Below are positions 13,281 through 46,926 of a DNA stretch of 64,000 nucleotides, piece by piece; position 1 is the first letter of the stretch; each line of letters begins with the position of its first letter. Where the stretch lies: positions 1-64,000 of the IMG/VR virus record IMGVR_UViG_3300021479_000006, one strand, 5' to 3'. The stretch comes from a virus. The notes below the pieces were generated by a model that saw nothing but the letters and a program-made list of their open reading frames with translations, had not been told where the DNA came from and made no database searches. Position numbers and translations under genes: made by a program.

Positions 13281-14405
13281 TTATATAATTTTGTAATGTT
13301 CTTTCAATATTTTACGAGCCTCTATTTCCTCTACAATCAATTGTTTTTTACTTCCTTTAATATTAAGTATATCTAAGTGAGCAAATATTTTTAACACGTT
13401 TGTTAATTGTGTTTTCGATATTATGAAACCTTGAGCCTTTGCTAAATCTTCGAAATTCTTAAGCGGTGGTAAATTAGCACCTTTTTTTAAGTGTTTAAAT
13501 GTGAATACCAAATCTAAAACTTTATCATGAAATTCCCAAGTTTTATATTGAGTATTTTCTTTAAGTTTTAACTCGTACTCTTGTACAGATTTAGTATTGT
13601 AGAGAAATGTGAAGAATATACCAGTGGAAACAAATATCTCAACTACAACAGCACCGATTACAAATATCCAAATGATATTACTATTTTCTGATTTATTTAC
13701 ATCAAGCTCAGTATTTAAATCTTTTTCGTAAACAGATATACTCTTATCACGTTCTGATTTAAGTTCTTTTATTTGAGATTCATTATTTTTTATAGTTTCT
13801 TTATTACCTTCAATTTGTTTACGATATTGATTTCTTTCTCGGCTCCATTGAGGTAATTCATCAATTCTTGTTTGTATTGTTAAATTGACATTAAATAACT
13901 GTCCATTTTGTTCCTCTATTTTAATAATTTTATCGTTATAATTTTTACTCAAAGAATCAGAATATATTTTGATATCCTTCTTTGTTTCTGTAACCATTAC
14001 TTTTTCTTTACTACTCAATTCTTTTGCTCCAGAAATACTAAAATAGAAGGATCCTGCAATCATAAGTAATGATGATAAAAAGAGTATTATTAAGCCCTTA
14101 CCAGCAAAATTAAAATTAGCTTCTACGAAATATTTGGAGAATTTGGAGTAAATAACTCTTTTAATAATTTCAAACAAAGCTATTGTGAATATAGCAGCAC
14201 TAATAATAAATACAACAATACCACCTGTAGGTTCTTCAGCAATCTTTGTGTAAACATCTTTAAAGAAAAAATATCCAAAAAACATAAGAACGCCTTGTAA
14301 TAAAATAGATATCCAGTATCCTACATCTTTAAGGCTTTTATATTCTTCAAAAAAAGATTTCTTTTCAACCTTCTTTTTTAAACTTTCGTATTCTTCATGT
14401 TTCAT
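13281..14405 (-). CDS. Four-helix membrane protein with coiled coil and wHTH-like tail (374 aa)
   Basis: Four hydrophobic helices are visible: residues about 30-50 (YWISILLQGVLMFFGYFFF), 63-83 (GIVVFIISAAIFTIALFEII), 103-123 (GLIILFLSSLLMIAGSFYF) and 247-270 (WIFVIGAVVVEIFVSTGIFF). Between helices 3 and 4 lies a roughly 120-residue charged coiled coil (NKETIKNNESQIKELKSERD), probably periplasmic or cytoplasmic depending on topology. The last 90 residues look like a winged helix (FIISKTQLTNVLKIFAHLDI). Its start overlaps the ClpA-like gene by 11 bp, hinting at a joint role, for example membrane recruitment. Not recognised as a known family. Confidence 0.7.
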   Translation of the reverse strand: MKHEEYESLKKKVEKKSFFEEYKSLKDVGYWISILLQGVLMFFGYFFFKDVYTKIAEEPTGGIVVFIISAAIFTIALFEIIKRVIYSKFSKYFVEANFNFAGKGLIILFLSSLLMIAGSFYFSISGAKELSSKEKVMVTETKKDIKIYSDSLSKNYNDKIIKIEEQNGQLFNVNLTIQTRIDELPQWSRERNQYRKQIEGNKETIKNNESQIKELKSERDKSISVYEKDLNTELDVNKSENSNIIWIFVIGAVVVEIFVSTGIFFTFLYNTKSVQEYELKLKENTQYKTWEFHDKVLDLVFTFKHLKKGANLPPLKNFEDLAKAQGFIISKTQLTNVLKIFAHLDILNIKGSKKQLIVEEIEARKILKEHYKII

Positions 14406-16314
14406 GTGTGTATCTTATATTATTATCAATTACTTCAATATTTATCACGGTATCCCGAATCATATGTTCTATTATATATTCGGCTAAAGGATTTGTTACT
14501 TCATTTTGTATAACTTCAGATACTTTCCAGGCACCTTTAGATTTATCCTCACATATAGTAGATAATTTTTCGATAAAGTTTTGCTGATATACCAAATCAA
14601 TATTTTGTATTTCCTTTAATCTAAACTCAATATCATTTATTTTATCTTTTACTATATCAGATAGAATCTCTAAACTTAAATTATTGAAATATAAAACATC
14701 ATCGAGTCTGTTTAACAATTCTGGTGTTAATACCTTTTTTATTTGTGTACCAACTGACTCAGATGTTTTCACTTCACTACTACCAAAACCCACTGGTTTA
14801 TAATTAAGTTCTTTTGTACCAATATTTGTTGTGAGAAGAATTATGGCTTGAGTAAGTCTTGCTTTCTTACCCATACTATCTGTTATAAACCCTTCATCAA
14901 GTATTTGAAGTAATAAATTTAAGATTGAACTATGTGCTAACTCTATTTGATCAAAAAGTATTACACAAGCAGGATGTTTCAATATTTCTCTTACAAGAGG
15001 GCTTCCTGCTTCATAACCAACATATCCAGGAGCACCACCGGTTAGTTTACTACTGTTCATTGATTCCATGAAGTCTGACATATTGAACCTTACAACTTTT
15101 GATTCATCATTCCATAATTCTTTTGCTATTTTATAAGCTATACTAGTTTTACCGGTACCACCTGGACCAGCTAACAAATAACAAGCTAAAGGTCTATTAG
15201 TCGATGATAAACCTGATACTTTTCTTTTTATACTATTCATTATAGCTTTTACCGAACTTTCTTGACCACGTAATACTTTATTTATATTATTTTCTATATT
15301 ATTCCAACGATTGGAGGCTTTACCAATACTCACCCAATCCAAAGGAAGATTAGCTTGTAAAGCGGTAACTTTTTCTAAATCTTCATTTTTTACTTTTTCC
15401 TTTTTTGTTACCAACTTCATTTTCCTAACAGAATCCTTCAATAATACTTCACATCTTTCAACGGATTCTAAAACATAAGGAACCTCTATCCAATCATGAT
15501 CCTTTATTATTCGTAATTTCTCTTGTTCCAAATATTCTAATTCTATTTCTAAAAGAACAACATCTTTTGGTTTTTGTTGTTTTCTGTTTTTAATTACACC
15601 ACCAACTTCATCGATAATATCAAAAGCCCCATCAGGCAAAGCTCTATGTGGTAAATATTTTATAGCAAGATCTACAGCATATTCTAATACTGAATCTGGG
15701 TATGTAATACCATGATGTTTCTCATAAATCGATTTTGACTTTTTAAGAATTTCTATGGTTTGTTTTCTATCGGTTGAAGGAACATCTATTATATTAAATC
15801 TTCTAGTAAAGGCACCGTCTTTGGAAAGATATTTCATATACTCCTCTTGTGTAGTACAACCGATTAAAACTATTTCATTACTTGTTAAATATGGTTTAAT
15901 TATATTACCTAGACTCAATGCCTGACTTTTATTTGCACTAAAGAAAGTATGAATTTCATCAATAAAAAGTATACAGTCCTTACTAGTAATTAAGAATTTC
16001 AATAATTTATCAAATTTCTCCTCTAACTCACCACGAAGTTTAGTACCAGCCATAAGGCCAGCCATATCAAGTTTGAGTATATGTTTAAATTTATGAGCTC
16101 TATTTTGATTTAATGTATGAGCGAGACCTTCTATTAAAGCAGTTTTACCAACACCAGGATCACCAAGTAACAATACATTTCTTTTCTTCCTTCTGGACAA
16201 ATAAATCAGAAGTTTTTTCATTTCATTTTCCCTGCCTATTGCTGGATCTATTTTCTTCTCTTCAGCCAGGGCTACAAGATCATCACCATAATTCTTTAAT
16301 TCACTCTTGTCCAA
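14395..16314 (-). CDS. ClpA/ClpC-like double AAA+ unfoldase (639 aa)
   Basis: Two AAA+ modules without the Clp N-domain. D1 has Walker A GDPGVGKT (51-58), Walker B ILFIDE (115-120) and an arginine-finger region FTRRF. D2 has Walker A GPGGTGKT (383-390), pore loop GAPGYVGYEAG (427-437), Walker B VILFDQ (451-456) and the sensor region LLNRLD. D2 Walker B carries Q456 instead of the catalytic Glu. Such E-to-Q changes usually block ATP hydrolysis, so D2 may be a structural or slow ring. VGF at 508-510 lies where ClpA/ClpC proteins dock ClpP. Two ClpP genes occur in this window. It is in the polymerase operon. Confidence 0.9.
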   Translation of the reverse strand: MDKSELKNYGDDLVALAEEKKIDPAIGRENEMKKLLIYLSRRKKRNVLLLGDPGVGKTALIEGLAHTLNQNRAHKFKHILKLDMAGLMAGTKLRGELEEKFDKLLKFLITSKDCILFIDEIHTFFSANKSQALSLGNIIKPYLTSNEIVLIGCTTQEEYMKYLSKDGAFTRRFNIIDVPSTDRKQTIEILKKSKSIYEKHHGITYPDSVLEYAVDLAIKYLPHRALPDGAFDIIDEVGGVIKNRKQQKPKDVVLLEIELEYLEQEKLRIIKDHDWIEVPYVLESVERCEVLLKDSVRKMKLVTKKEKVKNEDLEKVTALQANLPLDWVSIGKASNRWNNIENNINKVLRGQESSVKAIMNSIKRKVSGLSSTNRPLACYLLAGPGGTGKTSIAYKIAKELWNDESKVVRFNMSDFMESMNSSKLTGGAPGYVGYEAGSPLVREILKHPACVILFDQIELAHSSILNLLLQILDEGFITDSMGKKARLTQAIILLTTNIGTKELNYKPVGFGSSEVKTSESVGTQIKKVLTPELLNRLDDVLYFNNLSLEILSDIVKDKINDIEFRLKEIQNIDLVYQQNFIEKLSTICEDKSKGAWKVSEVIQNEVTNPLAEYIIEHMIRDTVINIEVIDNNIRYTHET

Positions 16315-16325
16315 GACCTAAAATT

Positions 16326-16631
16326 TTATTTTAGTTTACCACTTAAACGTTCCCAAAAAGTTAATTTCTTTTTGTATCGTTCACTTAAGTTATTTATCTT
16401 GTATTGCTGTTCTTGTATTTGATTCAAAAATATTTGATTTAATCTTAAAAGTTCTTTTTCACTATCTCTAGCTTGTTCAAGCTCATTAATCACTCGTATT
16501 TTATCTGATTGAATATACCTTATAGTAGATTTTGCTTCATCAAGAAATGAAGAAACTTGTTGATGTGTGTAATTTTGATAACCATCATTGTTATACAAAA
16601 ATTCAATAAAATCTTTTACCTGAGGCCACAT
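16326..16631 (-). CDS. Coiled-coil protein (101 aa)
   Basis: Almost entirely helical and charged, with heptad-like stretches (FLDEAKSTIRYIQSDKIRVI; LLRLNQIFLNQIQEQQYKIN) ending in a basic tail (RYKKKLTFWERLSGKLK). It lies 11 nt upstream of the ClpA-like gene in the same operon, so it could be an adaptor or assembly partner for that ATPase. This is suggested by position only. No known family. Confidence 0.6.
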   Translation of the reverse strand: MWPQVKDFIEFLYNNDGYQNYTHQQVSSFLDEAKSTIRYIQSDKIRVINELEQARDSEKELLRLNQIFLNQIQEQQYKINNLSERYKKKLTFWERLSGKLK

Positions 16632-16679
16632 ATTATATTGTTTATATAGGCTTAAAATATTATACCTATAAACAAAATT

Positions 16680-16982
16680 CTAAATATTCCAAGTTGGTAT
16701 ATCATGAATAGGCATCCAATATAGAACTGTAACATAATCGTCATCAAGTTGCCATTCGTTCATACAACTATTTCTATATACTTTTGCGGGAAAAGTATAT
16801 TTCTCATATTTTTTACTAAAAAGAGTTTCTTCGGAAGCAATTTTTTCAACAACACCCCAGAAACAACCTATATCAGGTAATTTTTCAGATGAAGAAATCC
16901 AACCTATACCAAGTAGAGATTTTAATTCTTCTCCACTAATTATTGGTACTTCTATTTCTGTTTTTATTTCGTAATTTTCCAT
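16680..16982 (-). CDS. DUF551-like protein (100 aa)
   Basis: It carries the DUF551 pattern: WISSSEKLPDIG near the start of the domain (usual form W-I-S-x-x-x-x-L-P-x-x-G) and a closing VLYWMPIHDIP (usual form V-x-x-W-M-P-x-P-x-P). DUF551 proteins are small and common in phages and prophages; their function is not established. The gene is 3 nt from its upstream neighbour and part of the minus-strand operon. Confidence 0.65.
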   Translation of the reverse strand: MENYEIKTEIEVPIISGEELKSLLGIGWISSSEKLPDIGCFWGVVEKIASEETLFSKKYEKYTFPAKVYRNSCMNEWQLDDDYVTVLYWMPIHDIPTWNI

Positions 16983-16985
16983 AAT

Positions 16986-17384
16986 TTATTGTAAATTGTA
17001 AACAAGAGTTTTAAAATTAATAGCATTCAACTGTATTTCAGGGACTTCCTCAGAAAAGTAATACCAGTGATCACCTCTACATAATTTAACATCGTTATCA
17101 ATGGATTCTATTACCATAAAATCATATTCTGAACAAAAGAGTAAATCTTTATCATAATGGTAATTATGAATATCGTCATTATAATAATCCCAAAATTTAT
17201 CATAAATTTCTGAGAGTCTATTGTAACATTCAGATTCAGTTTCATAATACTCTTCTACATGTTTCTCTTCATCTAAACGGCCTTCGTATATTATGAAACG
17301 CCATCCTTTTTCAGATTCTTTCCATATATAAAAATCATCCAGCATATCTTTTAATTCATCACTATAATTATCCGGTGTATACAT
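16986..17384 (-). CDS. Acidic, tyrosine-rich hypothetical protein (132 aa)
   Basis: The product is strongly acidic and rich in Y and W (for example EEYYETESECYNRLSEIYDK and FWDYYNDDIHNYHYDKD). ATG 17384 is preferred; an upstream ATG at 17423 would overlap the DNA polymerase gene by 26 bp. Such acidic, aromatic small proteins in phages are sometimes DNA mimics or inhibitors of host nucleic-acid enzymes, but nothing specific supports that here. It follows DNA polymerase directly in the operon. Confidence 0.6.
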   Translation of the reverse strand: MYTPDNYSDELKDMLDDFYIWKESEKGWRFIIYEGRLDEEKHVEEYYETESECYNRLSEIYDKFWDYYNDDIHNYHYDKDLLFCSEYDFMVIESIDNDVKLCRGDHWYYFSEEVPEIQLNAINFKTLVYNLQ

Positions 17385-17397
17385 ATTAGTAGTTTTT

Positions 17398-20247
17398 TTA
17401 AAAATCCCATTCTTTATCATCATTCAAAATAGCCTCGTTATCAGCGTTTATTTTAATAGTTTTTTCATCATCACCCCATTTATTAATAACACTGGTTTTA
17501 GCATTTTCTAAGACTTTCTTTTTCATGTCTTTAGTAGTATTGAATATATCAAGTCTCATTTGAAGATTTCTATCAAACTGACTTAGTCCAAGTACAGCAT
17601 TAAATCTATTTACCAGAGAAAGAATTGTTTTTTCAAATGTTAAATCACGATCTATTGGTGCTTCTCTCTCAGCAAATTCAATAGGATATGAGCCACGAAT
17701 ATAAGCAAATTCTTTAGTACCTTTTAATTTAGTAACTGATTTAGCATAATAATATTTTATTTTATCACCAGCCTGAATTAAGTTATACTTATTTTTTAAG
17801 GTTGAGTTTTTATTTAATAAATAATTATAGAACCCAGCAGCTTTAACATTATGTGTTGCACCTTTTTCATATAAGAAATTTGCTTGGTCATCAATTATAG
17901 CACCCATATCATTTACTGATGTACTACAACTAATATCTTCTATATCAGCAACCTCATGAGCCATTTTAATTTTCTTTAACAATTTATTCAATTCAAAATC
18001 ATTAAGATCATCTTTGTTGATAAAATAATATTTTATAATACCATCCATATGTTCTCTCACAAATAAAGGTGTTTTAGAACTTACGATATCAATACCTGTT
18101 GGACTTAGTTTAGACAAACTAGCATGAAATATTCCTTTCTTACACCAATCAGGATTTTCTGTTCTTTCTTCACCATCTTCCCAGGCAAGATTTTTAATAT
18201 ATTTTTTCTTCTCTAAGAAAATAATAGATTCGCTTATACTTTCAAGTTCAAATTCTTCTATATTTTTCACTTTATATTTATCAGCATAAGCTTCGAGTAC
18301 ATCTACAAAATATCCAGCTAATCTATGATTATTAACCGTATGTACAAATTTTATAGGATCCTCATTCCAACCACAACTTTGTGCACCCGGATAGAAAGTT
18401 ATATAATTAGAATCTGTGTCAATATATACTGTACATGATGTTTTTTTAGGAATTTGTTTAACATCCGTTACACCAAGTATTTTATGTAATTCAGTATCTA
18501 AATGCCATTTATTATGCCAATAATCTTCATTCGCTGTACCCATTACTTGAATTATATCACGACCAAATGCTGTAATAGTACTTGCAACACCGTTTTCGAA
18601 AGCAACGAAGTGTCTGGCTGCAAAGGCACCATAAGAACCATTCAACACAAGTTTTAATGCCATCTGAATAGCATCAAATCTGTTGTAGCTGGCCATAGCT
18701 TCTTCATATTTAACTTTTAACTCAGCCATCAATTCCTTATCTGGTTTCAATTTAGACTTCTCAGCCTTCATCTGATCCGAATATGTTTTAGCTTTATCTT
18801 TTGATTCTGTGGCCCACTTCTTATTTTTCTTTCTATCATAGTAAATCTCTGTAAGTTTATTCACCACAACAGATTCACTTCTGGCAAATACAGCATTATT
18901 AACAGCTACAATATCATCTTCAGCAATTTTATATTTCTTACCTTTCCATAAAGCATATCCAGGTTCATCTTTAATAACATAACCTCTAAATGTTTCAGGC
19001 GAAAGATTAAACTGTCTGATATTTGTCGGATATAGAGAAGCGAAGTCATAACATGACACATACCGGTTCATACCTTTTAAAGGATTCTTTACATAACCAC
19101 CTTTAATCTTCTCTTCAATATGACTATCATCGTAATCTTTAAAGAAAACAATATTTAACTTATCCCGGTAATCTTCTCTAAGGATACCTTCAGTTACACG
19201 AAGCGTTGTCACAGCATCCAATATTCTTACCTTCGCAAGAGAAGCAATAGCAAACATAATGTTTGCATACTTAGTCTTTTCATGAATAAGTTGCACAAGT
19301 ATGGAGTCAGCAGCATTATAAAATAAATATTCTTCCAAATTTTCATCATATAATTGTTGAAGATCTCCAGGATATTTAATTTTACCAACACCAAGAAGTT
19401 TCATAGAAACGAAATCCAAAGCAGCCGATTCTTTTACTTTGATAGAAGTATCCCATTTTTTATACAGATCCATGTAATCGACAATTACACGATGTCTTGG
19501 AAGTTCTTCGTATTTCTTTTTTAATTTCTTCTTTTTATCAGCAGCACTTGGTTCCTTATTAAAAGGTTTGTCAAGTAATCTTGATGGACTTACACTAGAA
19601 GGATCTAAACCAAGTTTTCTTGCTCTATTAATGATATAGACCCAGTCATATTCAACAAAGTTCCAACCTGTTATAATAGAGAAATTTGGTATAACCTGTT
19701 CAAGTAAATAAGCAACTAACGCTCTTTCAGGATCTTCATTATCATGAAAACTGATGTATTTCACATCAAAATTTAAATTGAAGTTTTCAAAGTGTTTATC
19801 AAGCTTCTTTTTAATGTTATTAATCTGACCATTACCCATAGGTTTAAGGCCTAATAGCATTACTTTACTACCAACAACAATTGACACAGTAAGAATAGGT
19901 GCAGCTGCCTTTTGTGGGGGCGACCAACCACCAGGAAGAATTTCATTTTCAATATCTATAAAAGCTATTTGTTTTGGTTCAACATAACCAAATATTTCTT
20001 CACGTTCCTTTTGTTCCAGAGCATCAAAAAACTCAAAAACACTATAACGGTTTGGTATTTTACAATTTACAACTTTTACAGCTTCACCATCCCAAGTATG
20101 ATATTCACTTTTATCAGGATCATCTTGGACAGTTTTTACGTATTTTTTGGGCTTTCTCCAGGGATAGTATTTCATCCTAAATTTACCTTTAGGGTCAAGA
20201 TAGGAGGCCATCAAACTTCCCGATTTGTATTCAAAATCTATAAGCAT
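17398..20247 (-). CDS. Family B DNA polymerase with 3'-5' exonuclease (949 aa)
   Basis: All signature motifs are present in order. Exo I is IAFIDIENE (D98, E100), Exo II is TGWNFVEYDWVYIINR, and Exo III is YNAADSILVQ. Polymerase motif A is YDFASLYPTNIRQFNL, motif B is KLVLNGSYGAFA, and motif C is YIDTDSNY. Both the proofreading and polymerising sites look intact. The length and the opening (short beta domain before Exo I) resemble T4-type phage polymerases (T4 gp43 is 898 residues). It is the first gene of a 12-gene minus-strand operon and is divergent from the 20402 operon. Confidence 0.95.
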   Translation of the reverse strand: MLIDFEYKSGSLMASYLDPKGKFRMKYYPWRKPKKYVKTVQDDPDKSEYHTWDGEAVKVVNCKIPNRYSVFEFFDALEQKEREEIFGYVEPKQIAFIDIENEILPGGWSPPQKAAAPILTVSIVVGSKVMLLGLKPMGNGQINNIKKKLDKHFENFNLNFDVKYISFHDNEDPERALVAYLLEQVIPNFSIITGWNFVEYDWVYIINRARKLGLDPSSVSPSRLLDKPFNKEPSAADKKKKLKKKYEELPRHRVIVDYMDLYKKWDTSIKVKESAALDFVSMKLLGVGKIKYPGDLQQLYDENLEEYLFYNAADSILVQLIHEKTKYANIMFAIASLAKVRILDAVTTLRVTEGILREDYRDKLNIVFFKDYDDSHIEEKIKGGYVKNPLKGMNRYVSCYDFASLYPTNIRQFNLSPETFRGYVIKDEPGYALWKGKKYKIAEDDIVAVNNAVFARSESVVVNKLTEIYYDRKKNKKWATESKDKAKTYSDQMKAEKSKLKPDKELMAELKVKYEEAMASYNRFDAIQMALKLVLNGSYGAFAARHFVAFENGVASTITAFGRDIIQVMGTANEDYWHNKWHLDTELHKILGVTDVKQIPKKTSCTVYIDTDSNYITFYPGAQSCGWNEDPIKFVHTVNNHRLAGYFVDVLEAYADKYKVKNIEEFELESISESIIFLEKKKYIKNLAWEDGEERTENPDWCKKGIFHASLSKLSPTGIDIVSSKTPLFVREHMDGIIKYYFINKDDLNDFELNKLLKKIKMAHEVADIEDISCSTSVNDMGAIIDDQANFLYEKGATHNVKAAGFYNYLLNKNSTLKNKYNLIQAGDKIKYYYAKSVTKLKGTKEFAYIRGSYPIEFAEREAPIDRDLTFEKTILSLVNRFNAVLGLSQFDRNLQMRLDIFNTTKDMKKKVLENAKTSVINKWGDDEKTIKINADNEAILNDDKEWDF

Positions 20248-20401: not shown

Positions 20402-20905
20402 ATGTTTAAAAAATTAAAAAATCACTTTTGGGGAGCATTCTTTTTGATTACCAGTATTCTGTTAATCGTTTCCTTAATATTTGCTAATAAATTTAACCTT
20501 GTACCAGTTTTTTTGGTTATATGTCTAATTATGAGCATTATGTTACATTTGGGTTGTGCTTATGAATCAAAATGGTCGGATCCAACAAAAATAAAAATTG
20601 TTTCTGTTAAAATATTAAAAAAACGGCAGTGTATTTGGGAAACCAGATATTTTGTTTTTGAACAACATACTGTCACAGATTATTATATGGGATATTTTAT
20701 AAAGTCTAAAACTATATGGCCAGAAAATATCAACTACAGAGAACGTTACAATGATTCATATGAAACCAAAGAAGATGCTATGATAGAAATTTTATTAACA
20801 CTTAAAACTTTAAAAGCTAATCTGTATAATGAACCTACAGTAAAAGATATAGAAGAGGTTTACGAAATTACGGTTGCTGAAGAACTGACCAAAATAGAAA
20901 TATAG
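20402..20905 (+). CDS. Membrane protein with two N-terminal helices (167 aa)
   Basis: Two adjacent hydrophobic segments at about residues 9-28 (WGAFFLITSILLIVSLIFA) and 34-52 (VPVFLVICLIMSIMLHLGC) form a hairpin anchor. The rest is a soluble alpha/beta domain of about 110 residues (ETRYFVFEQHTVTDYYMGYF, then an acidic helix KEDAMIEILLTL). No signal for export beyond the anchor. It starts the plus-strand operon that continues with SmpB, with only 2 nt between the genes. Function not recognised. Confidence 0.65.
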   Translation: MFKKLKNHFWGAFFLITSILLIVSLIFANKFNLVPVFLVICLIMSIMLHLGCAYESKWSDPTKIKIVSVKILKKRQCIWETRYFVFEQHTVTDYYMGYFIKSKTIWPENINYRERYNDSYETKEDAMIEILLTLKTLKANLYNEPTVKDIEEVYEITVAEELTKIEI

Positions 20906-20907
20906 TA

Positions 20908-21357
20908 ATGGAAGTTATTTTTACAAATAAAAAGGCCCGGTATGAATACGAGTTTATAGAAACCGAAATAGCTGGTATCATGTTACATGGTTCCGAAGTA
21001 AAAGCTTTGAGAGAAGGTAAAACCAATATTGATGATGCTTACCTAACTATAAAAGATAGCAAAGTAATTATCCAGAAAATGTTTATTGGTGATCAGAAGG
21101 TCTCTAATCACACTTCACATGATAACTCCAGGGACCGGATTATTCTTATGACTAAGAATCAAAGAAGAAAATGGTTACAAAAGTTGGAAACAAAAGGTTT
21201 AACAATTATTCCATACAAAGTTTTCTTTGATGATAAAAATATTTGTAAAATAGAAGTTGTTTTAGCTAAAGGCAAAAAGCTTCATGATAAGAGAGAATCA
21301 ATTAAAAGTAAGGATATTGACAGAGACACAAAAAGAGAATTAAGCAATCTAAATTAA
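20908..21357 (+). CDS. smpB: SmpB, SsrA/tmRNA-binding protein
   Basis: Near full-length SmpB (149 residues; cellular proteins are about 150-160). Visible hallmarks are NKKARYEYEFIETEIAGI, the motif GSEVKALREGKTNIDDAYL, the RKWLQKLETKGLTIIPYK segment, and the C-terminal AKGKKLHDKRESIKSKD tail that inserts into the ribosomal decoding centre. SmpB binds tmRNA and rescues stalled ribosomes. A viral copy is unusual. No tmRNA gene is visible in this window, so it may use the host tmRNA or one elsewhere in the genome. It shares an operon with a J-domain protein and a ClpP. Confidence 0.95.
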   Translation: MEVIFTNKKARYEYEFIETEIAGIMLHGSEVKALREGKTNIDDAYLTIKDSKVIIQKMFIGDQKVSNHTSHDNSRDRIILMTKNQRRKWLQKLETKGLTIIPYKVFFDDKNICKIEVVLAKGKKLHDKRESIKSKDIDRDTKRELSNLN

Positions 21358-21362
21358 ACTAT

Positions 21363-22403
21363 ATGACAAATTCAAAATGGACACACGAAAGTTTGTTGTT
21401 GATGGAGAAAATCAACAATCACTTTAATAAACTATGTAGTGAGACAAACTATGTAAACAGGCTCGGTGAAGAAAACAATTGGACTTTTACTTATACCGTA
21501 AGAGCAGTTGAAGAATATAAGAAATTTTTATTCTTATTCGCTATAGATAAAGACCCTGTTTCACCATCACATCCAATAGATGAAGCTTGGCACACACACA
21601 TTCTCTACACAAAAAATTACTTCAACGAACTTTCCACTATTCTTGGTAAAACATTACATCATGAACCAGAAACTGGAAGAAAACAAATCGAAGAGATTAC
21701 CAAACTAAAAAATTGGTACAAATCTACACTGGAACGTTATAACAGTTATTTTGGTGAGGAACCTAAAGATATTTGGACTGTAGTCAAAAAAGATAATTAC
21801 AGTATTGCTGATGAGGAAAATTTATCAAAAAAAGCTAATTCTTTACATGGTATGTTGTATGTAAATATTATCCCCATTGTTATTTTAGTAATACTATCCG
21901 GTGGATTTGCCTTATTTGGTTTATTCTGGTGGGCTTTAATTGGTGCTGTAATAGCTACAACTTATTATATTTTTAATGCTATTTCAGAAAACAAAAAAGA
22001 ACGTGACGATAGAGAGGAAGAAGAACGATTGTCTAGAATTAGACACACTTCTCATAAAGAAACTCAATATAGCTCAAAAAATAGATATACGGAAGATCTT
22101 AATAAAAGGCGTTCTGAAACACCAAAAACTATTGAGACAATTCATACAACTGAAACAGTTCATCATTCAGGATTGGATCCCGTGACTTCATATCTTTTGA
22201 TGGATTCCATAATGAATCATAATAATGAAAGTAATAATCCAGATACTAGTAATGATTCAGGAAAATCTAGCTGTTCAAGTTGCTCATCAAAATCAAGTTG
22301 TTCCAGTTCTTCAGATTCTAGTTCACATTCAAGCTGCTCTTCAGGTTCTAGCTGTTCAAGTAGTAGTTGTTCATCAGGTTCTAGTTGTGGTGGTGGAGAT
22401 TAA
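21363..22403 (+). CDS. Membrane protein with GRDP-like domain and Ser/Cys-rich tail (346 aa)
   Basis: The N-terminal 130 residues contain VSPSHPIDEAWHTHILYTKN and LHHEPETGR, the signature of glycine-rich-domain-containing (GRDP-like) proteins (D-E-x-W-H-x-H, then H-H-x-P). Two hydrophobic segments at about residues 164-198 (VNIIPIVILVILSGGFALFG; WALIGAVIATTYYIF) form a membrane hairpin. A charged linker follows, and the last 60 residues are almost only S, C, G and H with regularly spaced Cys, ending in CGGGD. The tail may bind metal or form disulfides. Function unknown; located 5 nt after smpB. Confidence 0.7.
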   Translation: MTNSKWTHESLLLMEKINNHFNKLCSETNYVNRLGEENNWTFTYTVRAVEEYKKFLFLFAIDKDPVSPSHPIDEAWHTHILYTKNYFNELSTILGKTLHHEPETGRKQIEEITKLKNWYKSTLERYNSYFGEEPKDIWTVVKKDNYSIADEENLSKKANSLHGMLYVNIIPIVILVILSGGFALFGLFWWALIGAVIATTYYIFNAISENKKERDDREEEERLSRIRHTSHKETQYSSKNRYTEDLNKRRSETPKTIETIHTTETVHHSGLDPVTSYLLMDSIMNHNNESNNPDTSNDSGKSSCSSCSSKSSCSSSSDSSSHSSCSSGSSCSSSSCSSGSSCGGGD

Positions 22404-22430
22404 TAAATAAATTTCCGCTTATACGAATTT

Positions 22431-23138
22431 ATGAATAAAATAAAAAACCTAAAGAAACAACGTGTTTTAAACCGATACTTTTTCTTCCAACAAGAACTCG
22501 ATATAAAAGAGAACATGTTGGAAGAAATGGATATCGAATTTAGAGATGCTCTTAGTGTTTTCTTAAAAAACAATCCTGAAGTTGATAAATTATATCAAGA
22601 AAGACTCAAACAAAAACAGGATGAGGAATTTCAACGTTATAAAGAAGCCTTCAGTGAAGAAACTGGTGAAATATTAAGTGATTCAAAAGAAATAATTCTT
22701 TCTGATAAAAAAGAGGAAAATTTCTTTGAAGAGGATCCAGAAGAATATACTAATGAAGAATCCGATGATAATGAATCTGAAGAAGATAATTCTGATAAAG
22801 AAGAAAAAAAGATATATCAGAAGTTATATCGAGAAATAGTTAAAATAACACATCCAGATAAAGTGAAGGATGACCAGAGAAATAAAATGTATATCAGGGC
22901 TACTACAGCTTATGAAAAAAATGAATTTCTTGTTTTAGTAATGATTGCGAGCCAATTAAATATTGAATGGGATTGGAATCCTATTATGGAAACAAGAGTT
23001 AAAACAACGGTAGATGGTTTACAAAAGAAACTAGTTTTAATAGAAAAAAGTGTATCCTGGCTTTGGTATAATACAGAAAATGACGATACAAAAAATCAAG
23101 TTCTTATGGTATTTCTCCGAAATATTTTACAATCATGA
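22431..23138 (+). CDS. Acidic protein with C-terminal J-domain-like segment (235 aa)
   Basis: A helical N-terminus is followed by a very acidic linker (residues about 95-125, EEDPEEYTNEESDDNESEED) and then a DnaJ-type segment: KLYREIVKITHPDKVKDD, with the diagnostic HPD tripeptide after helix II, and YIRATTAYEKNEFLVLVMIA as helix III. The J-domain would stimulate DnaK-type Hsp70 ATPase. A J-domain near the C-terminal half is unlike classic DnaJ but is seen in specialised co-chaperones. It overlaps the next gene by 4 bp (ATGA). Its neighbours SmpB and ClpP suggest a role in protein quality control. Confidence 0.7.
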   Translation: MNKIKNLKKQRVLNRYFFFQQELDIKENMLEEMDIEFRDALSVFLKNNPEVDKLYQERLKQKQDEEFQRYKEAFSEETGEILSDSKEIILSDKKEENFFEEDPEEYTNEESDDNESEEDNSDKEEKKIYQKLYREIVKITHPDKVKDDQRNKMYIRATTAYEKNEFLVLVMIASQLNIEWDWNPIMETRVKTTVDGLQKKLVLIEKSVSWLWYNTENDDTKNQVLMVFLRNILQS

Positions 23139-23608
23139 TTCTTCAGAATCAACTTATCAATTATTTAAATGAAAACCTTGATCATAACAATGATTCCAAG
23201 GTTTTCTTATTATATCTACATTCTGAATTAAAGAATAAGCCTGCATCGGATGAGTTAAATAATCAGGTATTAGAAAAATTAAAAAATATGTTACCTATGG
23301 GTGACTGGTATTCTTATTGTTTAAATACAAATAATAAAGAAGATTTTTTCGATAGACTAAAACAAATTGTATATGAAGCTTCACATTTGAACATTCTTGA
23401 TATACTTAAAAAACATTCTGATTTAGAATCGGATGCAAGACAGGAAGAAGATTATAAGTTATATCTTATTGATTTTCTCACTAATAATATCAATGAGAAA
23501 GATTATGATATGGAAACAAAGGATTCCTTATCACAATTATATGAACTTATTATTTCTGGTGAAATTCAGTATGTAGAAGATATGTCGAAATACGGCCTTA
23601 TTTTATAA
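23135..23608 (+). CDS. Acidic helical hypothetical protein (157 aa)
   Basis: An acidic, helix-rich protein (LINYLNENLDHNNDSKVFLL; EDFFDRLKQIVYEASHLNIL). No cysteine-based, catalytic or membrane motif. The start ATG overlaps the stop of the J-domain gene in an ATGA arrangement, which implies translational coupling and likely partnership with that protein. Function unknown. Confidence 0.65.
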   Translation: MILQNQLINYLNENLDHNNDSKVFLLYLHSELKNKPASDELNNQVLEKLKNMLPMGDWYSYCLNTNNKEDFFDRLKQIVYEASHLNILDILKKHSDLESDARQEEDYKLYLIDFLTNNINEKDYDMETKDSLSQLYELIISGEIQYVEDMSKYGLIL

Positions 23609-23654
23609 ACTTTTCATCAATAAAGGATATAATTCTTAAACTGAATTTATATTC

Positions 23655-24209
23655 ATGGAAAAACCTGTAAGCAGAAAAATATATCTATCCGAACAATTTA
23701 CACAAGAAAGTATTAAATTAGTAACAAAAAGTATTGATGAAATTAATGATAAAGATGATACCCTTGAAAGAGAACTTTTAATTACTTATGGATTAACATA
23801 TGAAAGAAAACCAATTGAGCTCAAAATCGATTCGTTTGGTGGGATGGTATATATGGCATTTGGATTAATTTCTGTTTTAGAAAATTCTAAAACACCTATA
23901 CATACAATTGTTACAGGTTGTGCAATGTCTTGTGGATTTTTACTTCTAATTTGTGGTAAGAAAAGATTTGCACATAAACATAGTACTATTTTATATCATC
24001 AAGTATCTTCTGGTGGTCGTGGCACATTAAAAGAACTCGAAGATAATATTGTTGAAACTAGACGTATCAACAAAGTTCTTAGAGATGTTACGTTAGCTAA
24101 AACTAAAATATCAAAAGCAAGATTAAAAGAATGTTATGAAAAGAAAATCGATTGGTACATTACCGCTGAAGAAGCTCTTAAACTTGGTATTATTGATGAG
24201 ATATTATAG
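23655..24209 (+). CDS. ClpP-like serine peptidase 1 (184 aa)
   Basis: The ClpP fold with the intact triad Ser92 (TGCAMSCGFLLL), His115 (TILYHQVSSGG) and Asp166 (KKIDWYITAEEALKLG). The oligomerising stretch IELKIDSFGGMVYMAFG corresponds to the ClpP oxyanion/GG region (here FGG). Length is slightly below the usual 193-207, with no propeptide. It is probably a tetradecameric peptidase that needs an AAA+ partner; the ClpA-like protein at 14395-16314 is a candidate. It is the last gene of the SmpB operon and lacks a late-promoter box, so it is likely expressed earlier than the second ClpP. Confidence 0.88.
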   Translation: MEKPVSRKIYLSEQFTQESIKLVTKSIDEINDKDDTLERELLITYGLTYERKPIELKIDSFGGMVYMAFGLISVLENSKTPIHTIVTGCAMSCGFLLLICGKKRFAHKHSTILYHQVSSGGRGTLKELEDNIVETRRINKVLRDVTLAKTKISKARLKECYEKKIDWYITAEEALKLGIIDEIL

Positions 24210-41100: not shown

Positions 41101-41101
41101 T

Positions 41102-41395: not shown

Positions 41396-41403
41396 ATAAA
41401 TAA

Positions 41404-41651: not shown

Positions 41652-41668
41652 AAATAAAAACTAACCAA

Positions 41669-42019
41669 ATGAATAAATATGTTCTTAATTTTGAGCAGTT
41701 TGTAAAAGAAAGCCAAAATATTGAAACCAATGAATTCTTTAGTTTTAAGAAAAAAGAATTATCACCTATACAGGAAGAATTAGATATGTTTTTAGATATC
41801 ATAGGAAGTCTGGATGTGAAGTTTGACAGTTTATATGATATATCGGAAGCAGAAGCTAATAAAGCAAAAACAATAGCTGAACTTATGCATATAGTAAATA
41901 AAGTTCTAAAAGAATTAAAAGAAGTAAACTTTTTAAGTCCTGATGATATAAATGTAAAAGATAGTCTTGAAATTTTCAAAGAAGAGCTTGCTTCTAAGTC
42001 TATAGCAATGAATGTTTAA
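41669..42019 (+). CDS. Helical protein with capsid-targeting-like N-terminus (116 aa)
   Basis: Starts MNKYVLNFEQFVKESQNIE, one of the clearest matches to the shared tag. The rest is helical and acidic (PIQEELDMFLDIIGSLDVKF; ISEAEANKAKTIAELMHIVN) with no known domain; size and composition recall internal head proteins. A late-promoter-like box lies 17 nt upstream, and a structured RNA plus terminator follow the stop. Interpreted as a packaged internal protein. Confidence 0.7.
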   Translation: MNKYVLNFEQFVKESQNIETNEFFSFKKKELSPIQEELDMFLDIIGSLDVKFDSLYDISEAEANKAKTIAELMHIVNKVLKELKEVNFLSPDDINVKDSLEIFKEELASKSIAMNV

Positions 42020-42020
42020 A

Positions 42021-42110
42021 GTCCTTATGGACATACTTGGTAAAGCCTCTTATCTTCGGATAACGTAACCAAGTGAGAGAATAAAACCAGTCCTAAATGA
42101 CTGGTTTTTT
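42021..42110 (+). ncRNA. Candidate structured RNA with pseudoknot and terminator
   Basis: Hairpin 1 is GTCC-TTAT-GGAC (42021-42032). Hairpin 2 pairs ACTTGGT (42035-42041) with ACCAAGT (42068-42074) and contains an inner TTATC-TTCG-GATAA stem with a stable UUCG loop. CTCT (42047-42050) in its internal loop can pair with AGAG (42076-42079) downstream, forming a pseudoknot. AACCAGTC-CTAAAT-GACTGGTT plus T-run (42085-42110) is an intrinsic terminator. It could be an independent small RNA or the 3' UTR of the tagged gene. Confidence 0.55.
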
Positions 42111-42160
42111 TATGTAAACTTTTTATAGTTTATAGAATATAACAATCAAATAAAACCATT

Positions 42161-42901
42161 ATGAATTTAACTAAACCAACAATTGACTGGTATCAGAAAT
42201 TGAATCAATTTAAAAATGATGAATTCAAATTTTTTGAAGCTGAACATGAATACAAATATAAAGGAAAGAAATTTGAAAGTGTAACAACCTTTATAAGTCA
42301 ATTTCATGAGAAGTTTGATTCTGATTATTGGAGTCAGATTAAAGCAGAAGAGCGTGGTATCACACAACAAGAAATATTGGCTGAATGGAAAGCTAAAGCT
42401 GATAGATCATGTGATCTTGGTACTATGGTTCATGAGTATGCTGAATACAAATGTGCCGGTAAAGAACCAAAAGAAGTAACTGATGAAGAAGTTAAAAAAA
42501 GAATCATAAGTTTAGAAGAAATATTTGAAACTAAACTGAAGAAGTTTATACCTGTAGCTCAAGAGATAAAAGTATTTTCACCTAAATTAAAACTTGCTGG
42601 CACCATAGATGGTTTATTTGAATATAAACAGAAGTTGGTTGTTGGTGATTATAAAACAAATGAAAAATTTACAACGGATAGTGATAAATGTTATAAAAAG
42701 CTTAATCCACCGTTTCAAAACAGATGGGAAAATAAATTAAATGAATACAGTATACAGGTATCAATGTACCGTCTAATATTAGAAGAATGGGGTATTGAAA
42801 CTGAGGCAGCATTTTTAATACATATTCCACCAGTTGGTAAATCAAATTTCCATATAGCACATGATTTTAGAAATGAATTAAAAATATTCTTTGGTATATA
42901 A
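42161..42901 (+). CDS. RecB/Cas4-type PD-(D/E)XK nuclease (246 aa)
   Basis: Motifs follow the RecB-like nuclease order: H91-E92 in GTMVHEYAEYK, D150 in LAGTIDGLFEY, D163-x-K165 in VVGDYKTNEKF and the downstream helix YSIQVSMYRLILEE (Q-x-x-x-Y). The active site looks complete. The N-terminal 60 residues include F-E-S-V-T-T-F-I, also typical of phage RecB-like exonucleases. It probably acts on DNA ends in recombination, degradation of host DNA or packaging. It stands alone between two terminator hairpins. Confidence 0.85.
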   Translation: MNLTKPTIDWYQKLNQFKNDEFKFFEAEHEYKYKGKKFESVTTFISQFHEKFDSDYWSQIKAEERGITQQEILAEWKAKADRSCDLGTMVHEYAEYKCAGKEPKEVTDEEVKKRIISLEEIFETKLKKFIPVAQEIKVFSPKLKLAGTIDGLFEYKQKLVVGDYKTNEKFTTDSDKCYKKLNPPFQNRWENKLNEYSIQVSMYRLILEEWGIETEAAFLIHIPPVGKSNFHIAHDFRNELKIFFGI

Positions 42902-42907
42902 ATGAAA

Positions 42908-42948
42908 AAACCTTCCAAGTGTGCATCATAGAGAGGCATGGAAGGTTT
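42908..42948. terminator. Stem-loop between convergent genes
   Basis: AAACCTTCCA pairs with TGGAAGGTTT across a 21-nt loop. It lies between the nuclease gene (plus) and the acidic core-like gene (minus). A second dyad, AACAGT/ACTGTT, follows near 42968-42999. Confidence 0.65.
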
Positions 42949-43001
42949 ATTCTAAATGACTCATCAACAGTTCCTATGGTATGTTAGTGAGTACTGTTAA
43001 A

Positions 43002-43610
43002 TTACTTCTTAGCAGAAGGCTTTGGTTTACCAGCAGCTTCAGGAGTTGTAACTTTAGGTGTTACATCAGCTTTTTTATGTTTAGCAGCAGGTTTAGTTTC
43101 TGGCAAAGAAAGTTTACCCTTTTTATCTACTTTAGTAGATTTTTTAGCTTCACTTATACCTTCTGTTTCTTCAGGTTTGGTTTCGTCTGTTTCATCATCA
43201 GACATAGTATCATCACCAAGACTATCACCCATATCTTCTGTAGAATCAGCAGCATCTGTTGTATCTTCTGCTACTTTTTCACAACAATCAGAAATTTCAT
43301 CAAGGAATTTTAACATATCCTCTTTAGTAAACTCATCTTCACTACCTTCTAATTTATCTTTTAAATCAAGAATTTTAGTTTTTATATCAGCTAAAATATC
43401 ATCAGCATCTACTTCATCAGTTTCAGCATCAGTTACATCATCACCAACTTCTTTAGTTTCATCTGAAGTCATAGCATCATCAGCTGGTGCATCAGTCGAT
43501 GCTGCTGGAGTTTCTAATTCATCATCAAAAGATTCTTCATTTTCTTGATTTGGTGAATAATTTTCTTTGAACATTTTCCATGTTGGTATTTTCCCGAAAG
43601 ATTGTTTCAT
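43002..43610 (-). CDS. Acidic, Lys/Pro-tailed protein, prohead-core-like (202 aa)
   Basis: The N-terminus (MKQSFGKIPTWKMFKENYS) is a looser match to the shared tag. Residues 20-150 are extremely acidic (D/E/S/T/A repeats such as DDVTDAETDEVDADD) around a short helical core (LADIKTKILDLKDKLEGSED). The C-terminal 45 residues are basic and rich in K, P and A (KPAAKHKKADVTPK). This composition resembles scaffold, prohead-core or DNA-condensing head proteins. It has an exact TATATAAATA box 18 nt upstream. Assignment is by composition and context only. Confidence 0.65.
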   Translation of the reverse strand: MKQSFGKIPTWKMFKENYSPNQENEESFDDELETPAASTDAPADDAMTSDETKEVGDDVTDAETDEVDADDILADIKTKILDLKDKLEGSEDEFTKEDMLKFLDEISDCCEKVAEDTTDAADSTEDMGDSLGDDTMSDDETDETKPEETEGISEAKKSTKVDKKGKLSLPETKPAAKHKKADVTPKVTTPEAAGKPKPSAKK

Positions 43611-43628
43611 GTTTAATTAATTTTATTT

Positions 43629-43638
43629 TATTTATATA
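43629..43638 (-). promoter_or_regulatory. Late-promoter-like box TATATAAATA
   Basis: It lies 18 nt before ATG 43610 and is the same ten bases as at 11311-11320. Confidence 0.65.
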
Positions 43639-43732
43639 TCTACCCAAATAATTCATTTTTTTACTCAGGTCACTTTAGGTAATTATATATCACAAAATAA
43701 TTTTCTATTTCCAAAACTATTAACATTCATAG

Positions 43733-43742
43733 TATATAAAAT
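43733..43742 (+). promoter_or_regulatory. Late-promoter-like box TATATAAAAT
   Basis: It lies 21 nt before ATG 43764 and is divergent from the box at 43629. It probably drives the ClpP-NusG genes. Confidence 0.55.
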
Positions 43743-43763
43743 ACAAATATAACTTTAATTAAG

Positions 43764-44429
43764 ATGACGAATTTCGAAAAATTTGCCAAAGGACAAGTAG
43801 GCTCATTAGCCTTACATGATTATGTGAACTATCAAAATAAGATGAAATCTTCTATGTCAGCTTATATTCTTGAAGAAAGAACAGGAAATCTTGCTGTAAT
43901 GGATATATTTTCCAGACTTATGATAGACCGAATTATATTTTTAGGTACTGAGATAGATGATATAGTTGCAAATATTGTGAATGCTCAATTGTTATATCTT
44001 GACACAGATAAAGTAAATGAACCAATAAAAATATTTATTAATAGTCCTGGTGGTGAATGTTATAGTGGTCTTGCAATACTAGATTGTATGGATATAGTGA
44101 AGTCTCCTGTAGAAACTGTATGTTTAGGTTTGTCCGCAAGTATGGCTGCTGTTATTTTAGCTCATGGGACCAAAGGTTATAGAAAAGCTACACCAAGAAG
44201 CCGAGTGATGATTCATCAACCTTCAGGAGGTGCTGGTGGAAACACAACACAAATTTCTATAACGGCTAAAGAATATGAAGAAGTTAAATTCATTTTAGCC
44301 GAAACATTAGCAATTGACACAGGAAAAACTACAGAGGAAATTCTTAATGATTTTGTTTTTGATAAATGGTTAAGTGCTCAAGCAGCTTTGGACTATGGTC
44401 TTATTGATAAATTAGTTATGAAAAAATAA
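43764..44429 (+). CDS. ClpP-like serine peptidase 2, candidate prohead protease (221 aa)
   Basis: ClpP fold with the intact triad Ser126 (LGLSASMAAVILAHG), His151 (SRVMIHQPSGGAGG) and Asp200 (FVFDKWLSAQAALDYGLID), and the FINSPGGECYSGLAI region. The N-terminus MTNFEKFAKGQVGS resembles the shared tag (N-F-E-K-F), adding about 20 residues compared with cellular ClpP. It is behind a late-promoter-like box and faces a prohead-core-like gene. ClpP-type (S14) enzymes serve as prohead proteases in some phages, so it may mature the head. Alternatively it works with the ClpA-like ATPase. Confidence 0.88.
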   Translation: MTNFEKFAKGQVGSLALHDYVNYQNKMKSSMSAYILEERTGNLAVMDIFSRLMIDRIIFLGTEIDDIVANIVNAQLLYLDTDKVNEPIKIFINSPGGECYSGLAILDCMDIVKSPVETVCLGLSASMAAVILAHGTKGYRKATPRSRVMIHQPSGGAGGNTTQISITAKEYEEVKFILAETLAIDTGKTTEEILNDFVFDKWLSAQAALDYGLIDKLVMKK

Positions 44430-44440
44430 AAAGTAAAACA

Positions 44441-45013
44441 ATGACACTAAATTGGTACGCTGTAAGAATATTAAACAATCAAGAAAATAAAGTAAAAACT
44501 TATCTTGATAGGGAGTTTATTAGAAATATAACCGGAGAATACTTAAATGAAGTATTGATTCCTGTAGAAAGATATTATGAGAAAACTAAAGATGGTAAAA
44601 AGAAACTTATAGAAAAGAAATTATTTTCTGGTTATGTGCTTATTAAAGCTGACTTAAGTAGAGAAATAGTATTGGATACAATTAAAAAAACTCCTGGTAT
44701 AATTGGGTTTTTGTCTTATAAAGACAACAATAAATCATCTATACCAACACCTCTAAAAGAAAGAGAAGTTGCTCAATTTTTAGGTAGAGGATCTGATTTA
44801 ACAGAAGAACAATCAACTGATTCTGATTTGTATATCATTGGTGAATCTGTAAGAATAACAGATGGTCCATTTAAAACATTTTTTGGTGAAGTTAAAGAAA
44901 TTTATGAAGACAAGAAGAAAGTAGTAATTGATGTTACTATATTTGGACGTATCACACCAGTCGAAGTTGATTTTAAACAAACAGAAAAAGCCGAACAGAA
45001 TGTTAAGGTATAA
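44441..45013 (+). CDS. nusG: NusG-family transcription factor (190 aa)
   Basis: The NGN domain is visible as LNWYAVRILNNQENKVKTYL, then KLFSGYVLIKADL and TPGIIGFLSY. A C-terminal KOW domain follows: IIGESVRITDGPFKTFFGEV to VIDVTIFGRITPVEVDF. Size and domain order match bacterial NusG. The N-domain binds the RNA polymerase clamp, and the KOW domain contacts ribosome or Rho. A phage copy could redirect host RNA polymerase to phage transcripts or prevent termination. It follows clpP by 11 nt in a late operon and precedes a strong terminator. Confidence 0.92.
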   Translation: MTLNWYAVRILNNQENKVKTYLDREFIRNITGEYLNEVLIPVERYYEKTKDGKKKLIEKKLFSGYVLIKADLSREIVLDTIKKTPGIIGFLSYKDNNKSSIPTPLKEREVAQFLGRGSDLTEEQSTDSDLYIIGESVRITDGPFKTFFGEVKEIYEDKKKVVIDVTIFGRITPVEVDFKQTEKAEQNVKV

Positions 45014-45042
45014 AAAAAATCCCGGTTAAACCGGGATTTTTT
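45014..45042 (+). terminator. Intrinsic terminator after nusG
   Basis: AAAAATCCCGG, loop TTAAA, CCGGGATTTTTT. The dyad is perfect and has T-runs on the plus strand and A-runs on the other. Confidence 0.9.
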
Positions 45043-45090
45043 ATTTAAAATATATTCAAACTAAATAAGATTTAAGGAATATAAATTCAT

Positions 45091-46926
45091 ATGATAAATG
45101 ATAAAATACAAGGTACCATAAACCATAAAAATATTGATTTTGCTTTGGTAGAATTTGAAGATGGTGGTTCTCTTAAAGTAAAAAGTAAAAGCCTTAATAA
45201 GGCTCTACATGGAGATCTTGTTGAAATAGGTATAGAAGGTAAAGAATACTTTGTAAGTAAAATAATTCAAAGAAGTATACAACATAAAATTAAAGGACAA
45301 TTAAAAATAAATAAAAATTTAACTTTTTTTGTTCCTCAAGAATCAAATTATTATACAGATTTCTTCATACCAACAAAGTTTTATCTCCAAGGTATGGATG
45401 ATAAAGATTATGTAACAGTTGAATTTTTAAGCTGGGGTGATAAAGATAAGAATCCAACAGCGAAGATTTTAAGTATAGATGGTAACAAATTTACACCAAG
45501 GATAGCTACTAAATTTTTAATCAATGAAATGAATCTTAGGACAGATTTTCCTAATTCTGTTATAGCCCAGGTAGAAAGAATTGAAATTACTGATGATATG
45601 TTAATAGGTCGAAAAGACTTTAGACAACATTTAACTTTTACAATAGATCCAGCAACAGCCAAAGACCATGATGATGCAATATCAATAGAAAAAACAGATA
45701 AAGGTTATAGGGTTGGTATTCATATTGCTGATGTGTCAGCTTTTGTTACACCAGGTACAGCTTTAGATATTGAAGCTTTTGAAAGAGGATGTTCTGTCTA
45801 CTTAGTGGATGAACATATACCAATGCTTCCAGAAAAACTATCATCCGATCTATGCAGTCTTATACCAAATGTAGATAGATTATCTTTTTCTGTAATATAT
45901 GATATAAGTAATGAATATAAAATTGAAGGTTACTGGGTTGGAAAAACAATTATTAATTCAAATGAAAATATTTCATATGAAGAGGCCCAAGCAATTTTAG
46001 ACGATAATGAACACAAGTATCATGAAACATTATCTATTTTAAATGATATAGCAGAGTATTTTACTAATACTAGAGAATCTATAGATTTAGAGGCTCCAGA
46101 ACTCGAATTTACACTTGATGAACAAGCATTTCCTATAAAAATAGGTTTGAAAAAAAGACTTGCTACACATAAGTTGATAGAAGCTTTTATGCTTATGGCT
46201 AACCAAACTGTAGCAGAAATACTTAGTAACTATGGTCCAGGTATATACCGAGCACATCCTAAACCAAGCAAACTACAAATATTAGAAATGTATGATTCAT
46301 TAAAAAAAATGGGTCTTACTTTAAATTTAAGTGAAGAAGATATAAAGAAAAGTTTGGATGAATTAAAAAGTAATACTCCAGAAGAATTAACTTCTACTGT
46401 TCGTGATACTATTCTTAGGAGTCTACCAAAAGCCTATTATACTTCAGATGTTGAGGTAGGACACTTTGGTTTAGGGTTTAAATATTACACACATTTCACA
46501 TCGCCTATAAGAAGATATCCTGATATCATCGCACATAGATTATTAAATTGTGTAATAGAAAAGAAACAATCTCTTATAACAGATCTTGAATCTAAAGCTG
46601 TACTTTTGAGTAAACGTGAAAAAGTTGCTCAACAAACTGAAAGAGAATCAAGCAGCCAAAAAATGACATTGTTTATGGAGACAATTAATTATCCCATATC
46701 AGCTAAAATAGTAAGTATAAAAGATTGGGGTGTATTTGTGAAGACTGAATTATTATCCGAAGGACTCATACCTATTCATAGTCTGAAAGGTAAATATAAA
46801 GATGGTGTAATGAAATGCCCCAACTTTACGCTAAAAGTTAATGACTATCTAGTTGTGAAAAAAGAAAGATGTGATTTAAAAAATAGAAGAGTTTATTTCG
46901 AACTATTACAAAAGAAAATTTACTAA
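45091..46926 (+). CDS. rnr: RNase R/RNase II-family 3'-5' exoribonuclease (611 aa)
   Basis: Catalytic RNB domain with TIDPATAKDHDDAISIE (the D-x5-D-x-D-D metal site), GIHIADVSAFVTPG, the substrate loop DEHIPMLPEKLSSDLCSL, and HFTSPIRRYPDIIAHRLL. N-terminal cold-shock/OB segments precede it and a C-terminal S1 domain follows (ISAKIVSIKDWGVFVKTE). The active site looks intact; length is shorter than E. coli RNase R (813) and close to RNase II (644). RNase R works with SmpB-tmRNA to remove faulty mRNA, so its presence with phage SmpB is notable. It overlaps the next gene by TAATG. Confidence 0.93.
   Translation: MINDKIQGTINHKNIDFALVEFEDGGSLKVKSKSLNKALHGDLVEIGIEGKEYFVSKIIQRSIQHKIKGQLKINKNLTFFVPQESNYYTDFFIPTKFYLQGMDDKDYVTVEFLSWGDKDKNPTAKILSIDGNKFTPRIATKFLINEMNLRTDFPNSVIAQVERIEITDDMLIGRKDFRQHLTFTIDPATAKDHDDAISIEKTDKGYRVGIHIADVSAFVTPGTALDIEAFERGCSVYLVDEHIPMLPEKLSSDLCSLIPNVDRLSFSVIYDISNEYKIEGYWVGKTIINSNENISYEEAQAILDDNEHKYHETLSILNDIAEYFTNTRESIDLEAPELEFTLDEQAFPIKIGLKKRLATHKLIEAFMLMANQTVAEILSNYGPGIYRAHPKPSKLQILEMYDSLKKMGLTLNLSEEDIKKSLDELKSNTPEELTSTVRDTILRSLPKAYYTSDVEVGHFGLGFKYYTHFTSPIRRYPDIIAHRLLNCVIEKKQSLITDLESKAVLLSKREKVAQQTERESSSQKMTLFMETINYPISAKIVSIKDWGVFVKTELLSEGLIPIHSLKGKYKDGVMKCPNFTLKVNDYLVVKKERCDLKNRRVYFELLQKKIY

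Follow-up and report, generated by a model that had tools for sequence, protein, structure and literature searches.

On balance we lean towards reading this virus record as a fragment of a Mahaphage-type genome with a modular kit, in which SmpB would serve ribosome rescue, RNase R would serve mRNA decay, the Clp proteins would carry out proteolysis and J-proteins would hand clients to DnaK. The window we analyzed covers the first 64 kb of a linear IMG/VR virus record of 166.9 kb, and positions refer to the window unless the record is named. Every gene of the set named in a first-pass annotation of the window lies at the position given there.

The record and its genes

The portal and capsid proteins of the record are T4-like, and the capsid protein shares 48-55% identity with the capsids of Mahaphages with genomes of 634-735 kb. 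We defined a core set of 89 genes as reciprocal best hits present in all four of these Mahaphage genomes, and 41 of the 89 were matched in the record. Because of the Mahaphage-like capsid and this share of the core genes, the record probably is a fragment of the much larger genome of a Mahaphage-type, T4-like huge phage. It is also probably truncated, since the core block of LR756504 that lies past the gene matching the left end of the window is mostly absent from the record. The relatives used for comparison were found through the capsid alignment; a scan of viral contigs with the portal protein returned zero relatives. The hosts are probably Bacteroidota, in keeping with the prediction of Al-Shayeb et al. 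2020 that Mahaphages infect Bacteroidetes (PMC7162821). A scan of bacterial genomes with ClpP2 gave no relative, and the host phylum could not be assigned in that way. The genes of interest are as follows.

14395..16314, minus strand: ClpC-like AAA+ unfoldase (AAA_2, E-value 1.2e-41)
17398..20247, minus strand: family B DNA polymerase (PF00136)
20402..24209, plus strand: six co-directional ORFs, namely a 167-aa ORF, SmpB, a 346-aa ORF, the J-like protein, a 157-aa ORF and ClpP1
20908..21357, plus strand: SmpB (SsrA-binding protein), 149 aa (PF01668, E-value 2.5e-44)
22431..23138, plus strand: J-like protein with an N-terminal coiled region, an HPD motif at residues 141-143 and conserved C-terminal helices
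23655..24209, plus strand: ClpP1, short (PF00574, E-value 1.4e-24)
43764..44429, plus strand: ClpP2, canonical length (PF00574, E-value 7e-60)
44441..45013, plus strand: NusG (PF02357, 1e-19; TIGR00922, 144 against a cut-off of 135.7)
45091..46926, plus strand: RNase R-type exoribonuclease, 611 aa (RNB, E-value 3.6e-98)
Record 106035-107459: two tRNA-Arg and one tRNA-Thr immediately before a short ArgRS-like gene
Record 148237-149298, minus strand: canonical DnaJ
Record 149519-150115: IF3 (148 bits against a cut-off of 60)

The record further encodes RNase HII and five distinct tRNAs. The ArgRS-like protein has 391 aa, matches argS with 40 bits and is 52-54% identical to homologues in LR756504 and LR745206. 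Apart from the set studied here, we observed a minus-strand gene at record 159983-161068 whose product combines solute-binding and ligand-gated ion-channel domains and resembles a prokaryotic glutamate receptor channel, a tandem pair of DUF4365-like genes at 2578-3446, and a match to the Rfam abiF RNA on the minus strand at 42910-42945 (38.5 bits against a cut-off of 37) that could be a terminator hairpin.

SmpB, the J-like protein and the smpB gene run

SmpB is full-length, with both the conserved core and the C-terminal tail present. Its residues 4-146 align to positions 1-142 of the 143 in PF01668, its tail is intact in the alignment and contains DKR, and it is 48.6% identical to the SmpB of LR756504. 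It scores above both NCBIfam equivalog cut-offs (153.6 against 130 and 150.3 against 119.1), and passing these curated thresholds speaks for the kit. The smpB, J-domain and clpP1 genes had been described as one operon, and the spacing is consistent with this, as the six same-strand ORFs are separated by gaps of 2, 5, 27, -4 and 46 nt. The divergent minus-strand run, headed by the polymerase and including clpC, is 154 bp away, and the order clpC-polB-smpB-J is kept in LR756504 at 534-543 kb.

The J-domain assigned at 22431 could be upheld only in part. The protein does have an HPD motif between two helices, yet no profile scored above its cut-off and no fold match was obtained. Searched alone, it had no significant Pfam match. 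Within its family the HPD motif is invariant in 11 homologues, 9 of the 11 have weak DnaJ Pfam matches, and the PF00226 score of 13.6 stays below the cut-off of 27.8. In a profile search against the PDB, J-domain proteins made up all but one of 15 weak matches, a few of which we take to be J-domain proteins. The AF2 model (mean pLDDT 79.7) predicts a helix-HPD-helix arrangement; a Foldseek search with this model returned no match and was uninformative.

Putative promoter motifs

Genes for the portal, scaffold, capsid and several tail proteins are preceded by the motif [GA]ATATATA[AC], which sits at about -27 to -33 (for example at record 96170, 98064 and 100268 and at window 26310, 43002 and 47563). 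In each of the four Mahaphages the motif peaks between -20 and -40; it resembles a late promoter. Our motif scan did not find it before the smpB run, clpC, clpP2 or rnr, which argues for the kit. A host-type TAnnTTTG lies at -29 of the first ORF of the smpB run, but this is weak evidence for timing because the motif has no overall enrichment on the sense strand.

The Clp proteins

The gene at 14395 had been called ClpA-like. A Clp unfoldase is indeed encoded there, although it is nearest to ClpC and not specifically to ClpA. Among solved structures a ClpC matches it best, and because the match begins at ClpC residue 164 the phage protein lacks the adaptor-binding N-domain. The protein retains the two Walker A motifs as well as the VGF loop for ClpP docking. 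The Walker-B Glu of D2 is replaced by Gln and the pore Tyr of D1 by Leu, and both substitutions are unique among the 14 phage Clp ATPases that we compared. In AAA+ proteins, hydrolysis in the ring concerned and the grip of the pore are expected to suffer from such changes. As read in the record, they would be expected to weaken ClpC, and they count against a working ClpCP and hence against the kit.

A (V/L)GF docking loop is present in 13 of the 14 phage Clp ATPases, which favours the kit. The sole exception is LR756501, the only complete genome compared that has a Clp ATPase but no ClpP. Loss of the loop alongside loss of ClpP would amount to covariation of ClpC with ClpP, although it is suggestive only, being a single event.

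Both ClpPs retain the Ser-His-Asp triad in alignments. ClpP1 belongs to a family of short ClpPs that is also found in LR756504, LR756502, Lak-C1 and LR756500; the N-terminal axial-loop region is missing from ClpP1 and its phage homologues and present in ClpP2. ClpP2 has NF011091 as its best NCBIfam model, with a score below the cut-off of that model, and is 53% identical to one of the ClpPs of LR756504. We considered that the two ClpPs might be capsid-maturation proteases, as their best PHROGs matches are labelled head maturation proteases, and rejected this as very improbable. A separate T4-type scaffold/protease gene lies immediately before the capsid gene (record 98064-100190, with weak S80/S77 matches), and the annotation of its counterpart in phage PTm1 gives both functions. 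Moreover, ClpP2 resembles cellular ClpPs over its length, and neither clpP is close to head-assembly genes or preceded by the late motif.

As a separate observation, 22 proteins carry an N-terminal aromatic-acidic motif like that which targets proteins to the T4 capsid, against a mean of 4.9 and a maximum of 12 in shuffled sets (window 10411, 24506, 24748, 30671, 41669, 47563, 55728 and others). ClpP2 fits this motif as well, but probably through its normal ClpP N-terminus.

RNase R and NusG

The RNase R-type protein has a CSD2, an RNB and a weak S1 match in the order CSD-RNB-S1, is without a long C-terminal extension, and keeps the active-site aspartates of RNB when aligned to a solved RNase R. 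Its TIGR02063 score of 474 bits is under the equivalog cut-off of 598. The nusG gene starts 11 nt after clpP2, and an intrinsic terminator (a hairpin followed by a T-run) lies between nusG and rnr.

The search for tmRNA

The first-pass annotation proposed that the phage has its own trans-translation-like surveillance and suggested looking for a tmRNA in the full genome. We found none in the 167-kb record with ARAGORN, with Rfam at gathering and permissive thresholds or with a motif search, and motif matches to the conserved tmRNA element TAAACNTGTAG occurred only inside ORFs. This counts against the kit, although the missing tmRNA is weak evidence about the phage because the record is an incomplete fragment. 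ARAGORN missed most of the phage tmRNAs recovered by the Rfam model, and for this reason we did not rely on its negatives.

A full-length tmRNA scores above the Rfam cut-off in LR756504 (65 bits), the two Lak phages examined, LR756500, G049 and G060. Among the 46 IMG/VR contigs bearing smpB, 18 have a tmRNA above the cut-off, and two of these 18 (G041 and G043) are probable host flanks. The tmRNAs in LR756504, the Lak phages, G049, G060 and many of the smpB-bearing contigs favour the kit. G059, G061 and G062 gave full-length matches below the cut-off with tmRNA-like ends, and LR756501 gave a weak one. In LR745206 and LR756502 all matches were short, even under laxer filters, and this absence of a full-length tmRNA disfavours the kit. 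The tags, read by hand or with ARAGORN, end in AVAA in LR756504, AVA in G060, VLA in LR756501, NVA and VVA in the L007- and L008-type contigs, VAA in L043 and IAA in G019; those of the L007-type contigs, L043, G060 and LR756501 do not end in LAA. We excluded the SmpB matches in prophage records such as those of E. coli and Klebsiella, because they probably lie in host DNA or in flanks from the host, and for the same reason G041, G043 and MT835488, in which rnr, smpB and ssrA are consecutive.

One alternative is that SmpB uses only the tmRNA of the host, or titrates or diverts it, and so tunes host trans-translation while no phage pathway is supplied. The failure to find a tmRNA in the record agrees with it, as does the report that a tRNA-like tmRNA fragment of phage DS6A inhibits tmRNA (PMC4131195). 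We nevertheless regard it as unlikely, because relatives encode their own tmRNA, the record is incomplete and SmpB retains an intact tail, which one might expect an inhibitor to have lost.

Co-occurrence and linkage in relatives

The distribution of the genes in the relatives is as follows.

LR756504 (closest relative): SmpB, tmRNA, RNase R, ClpC and three ClpPs
LR756502: SmpB, RNase R, ClpC and three ClpPs
LR745206: SmpB, RNase R, ClpC and two ClpPs
LR756501: SmpB, weak tmRNA and a Clp ATPase without docking loop; no ClpP and no RNase R
Lak-B5 and Lak-C1: SmpB, tmRNA and two ClpPs; no RNase R and no ClpC lid domain match
LR756500: tmRNA and two ClpPs; no SmpB match
PTm1: none of the tested genes
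G049 (508-kb IMG/VR contig): all five kinds of gene
G019 (separate 353-kb phage), 139730-142970: dnaJ, a 154-aa ORF, clpP and ssrA, consecutive

IMG/VR contigs of 100-250 kb have subsets of the kit, as is expected of fragments. SmpB, RNase R, ClpC and ClpP are all present in the closest relatives, which favours the kit, while members are missing in several others, which disfavours it. The genes thus recur with gain and loss and not as one fixed cassette. The co-occurrence proposed in the first-pass annotation holds for huge relatives but is incomplete, and the independent, patchy occurrence that was named beforehand as speaking against a joint function is seen in part, in LR756501, the Lak phages and LR756500.

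For linkage, we counted the gene pairs within 5 kb and compared them with random placement. G019, whose terminase, portal, capsid and sheath identify it as a phage, has four such pairs (P=0.0017); this record also has four (P=0.037, for a gene list drawn up once the cluster had been seen), LR756504 has two (P=0.10), LR756502 has one, and LR745206, LR756501 and G049 have none. Clustering above chance is therefore clear only in G019 and weak in this record, and in complete genomes the kit genes are mostly scattered, which also counts against the kit. On the other side, the linkages that do occur favour it: clpC adjoins smpB in three phages (this record, LR756504 and G060), clpP1 adjoins smpB in this record and in LR756502, and in G019 smpB follows rnr at a distance of about 1.7 kb and clpP neighbours ssrA, with a terminator-like hairpin between the last two.

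The main alternative that we weighed is that the genes are independent modules and not one pathway: SmpB would serve rescue, RNase R would act in overall RNA turnover and in nucleotide recycling, and Clp would remodel host or phage proteins, their co-occurrence arising as huge genomes gather host-like housekeeping genes. The patchy presence across complete genomes, the distances between the genes in LR745206, LR756502 and G049, the near-random clustering seen in most genomes and the terminator between clpP2-nusG and rnr all agree with it, and IF3, NusG and the tRNAs indicate a broader kit. The dnaJ-clpP-ssrA and rnr-smpB neighborhoods of G019, with their low P value, and the recurrent clpC-smpB adjacency argue against it. 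We consider this alternative possible but doubtful.

Proposed function

For the kit that we favour, we infer the following activity, partnership, benefit and timing. SmpB would bring tmRNA, either the phage's own from the missing part of the genome or that of the host, to ribosomes stalled on broken mRNA, and the ribosomes would be freed. RNase R would degrade mRNA that is loose or non-stop, tagged and other proteins would be broken down by the ClpPs together with a Clp ATPase of the phage or of the host, and DnaJ and the J-like protein would pass clients to the host DnaK. As an outcome, ribosomes would stay productive through a long infection with mRNA cleavage. The proposal that the phage has its own trans-translation-like surveillance is borne out in part: the set of genes is genuine and recurs in huge relatives, but no tmRNA was found in the record, the set is patchy and ClpC carries its substitutions. 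Judged from the sequences, trans-translation is a plausible role for SmpB; the coupling of the genes into one pathway is unproven. A further and improbable extension is that some Mahaphages have an orthogonal pathway, separate from that of the host, in which a tmRNA with its own tag and the phage SmpB would act together and a phage ClpC-ClpP machine, whose barrel might combine ClpP1 and ClpP2, would recognize the tag.

Should the kit be functional, huge phages would repair host translation beyond merely steering it, infection would be less sensitive to mRNA-cleaving defences, and the phages would gain their own means of tagging and degrading proteins. The function of the kit can be tested directly in view of the relatives that have smpB as well as ssrA and of the ClpC-ClpP covariation.

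Comparison with known systems

Systems with two ClpPs are known, such as ClpP1P2 of mycobacteria. The phages resemble them in having two ClpP paralogues per genome and differ in that the phage ClpP1 is without the N-terminal region. The likeness to bacterial trans-translation lies in an orthologous SmpB and in the catalytic residues kept by the phage RNase R and ClpP, and the proximity of rnr and smpB in G019 recalls the rnr-smpB operon of Gram-positive bacteria (PMC3534368). In contrast to the bacterial system, the phage genes are dispersed, the ATPase is ClpC-like (no ClpX was seen among the genes examined), RNase R is shorter and a tmRNA was not seen in the record. Mycobacteriophages and Bacillus phage G have been listed as phages with ssrA (PMC4131195); phage-encoded tmRNA is the shared feature, and several Mahaphage relatives have smpB in addition. 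Al-Shayeb et al. 2020 report tmRNAs and SmpB among the translation genes of huge phages, and ClpP, RNase R, proteases and chaperones are unmentioned in their main text (PMC7162821). Their huge phages include the clade of our phage, whose record differs in showing no tmRNA in its 167 kb. As SmpB and tmRNA in huge phages were already published in 2020, the set of genes in this record is real and partly known, and it is not a new system.
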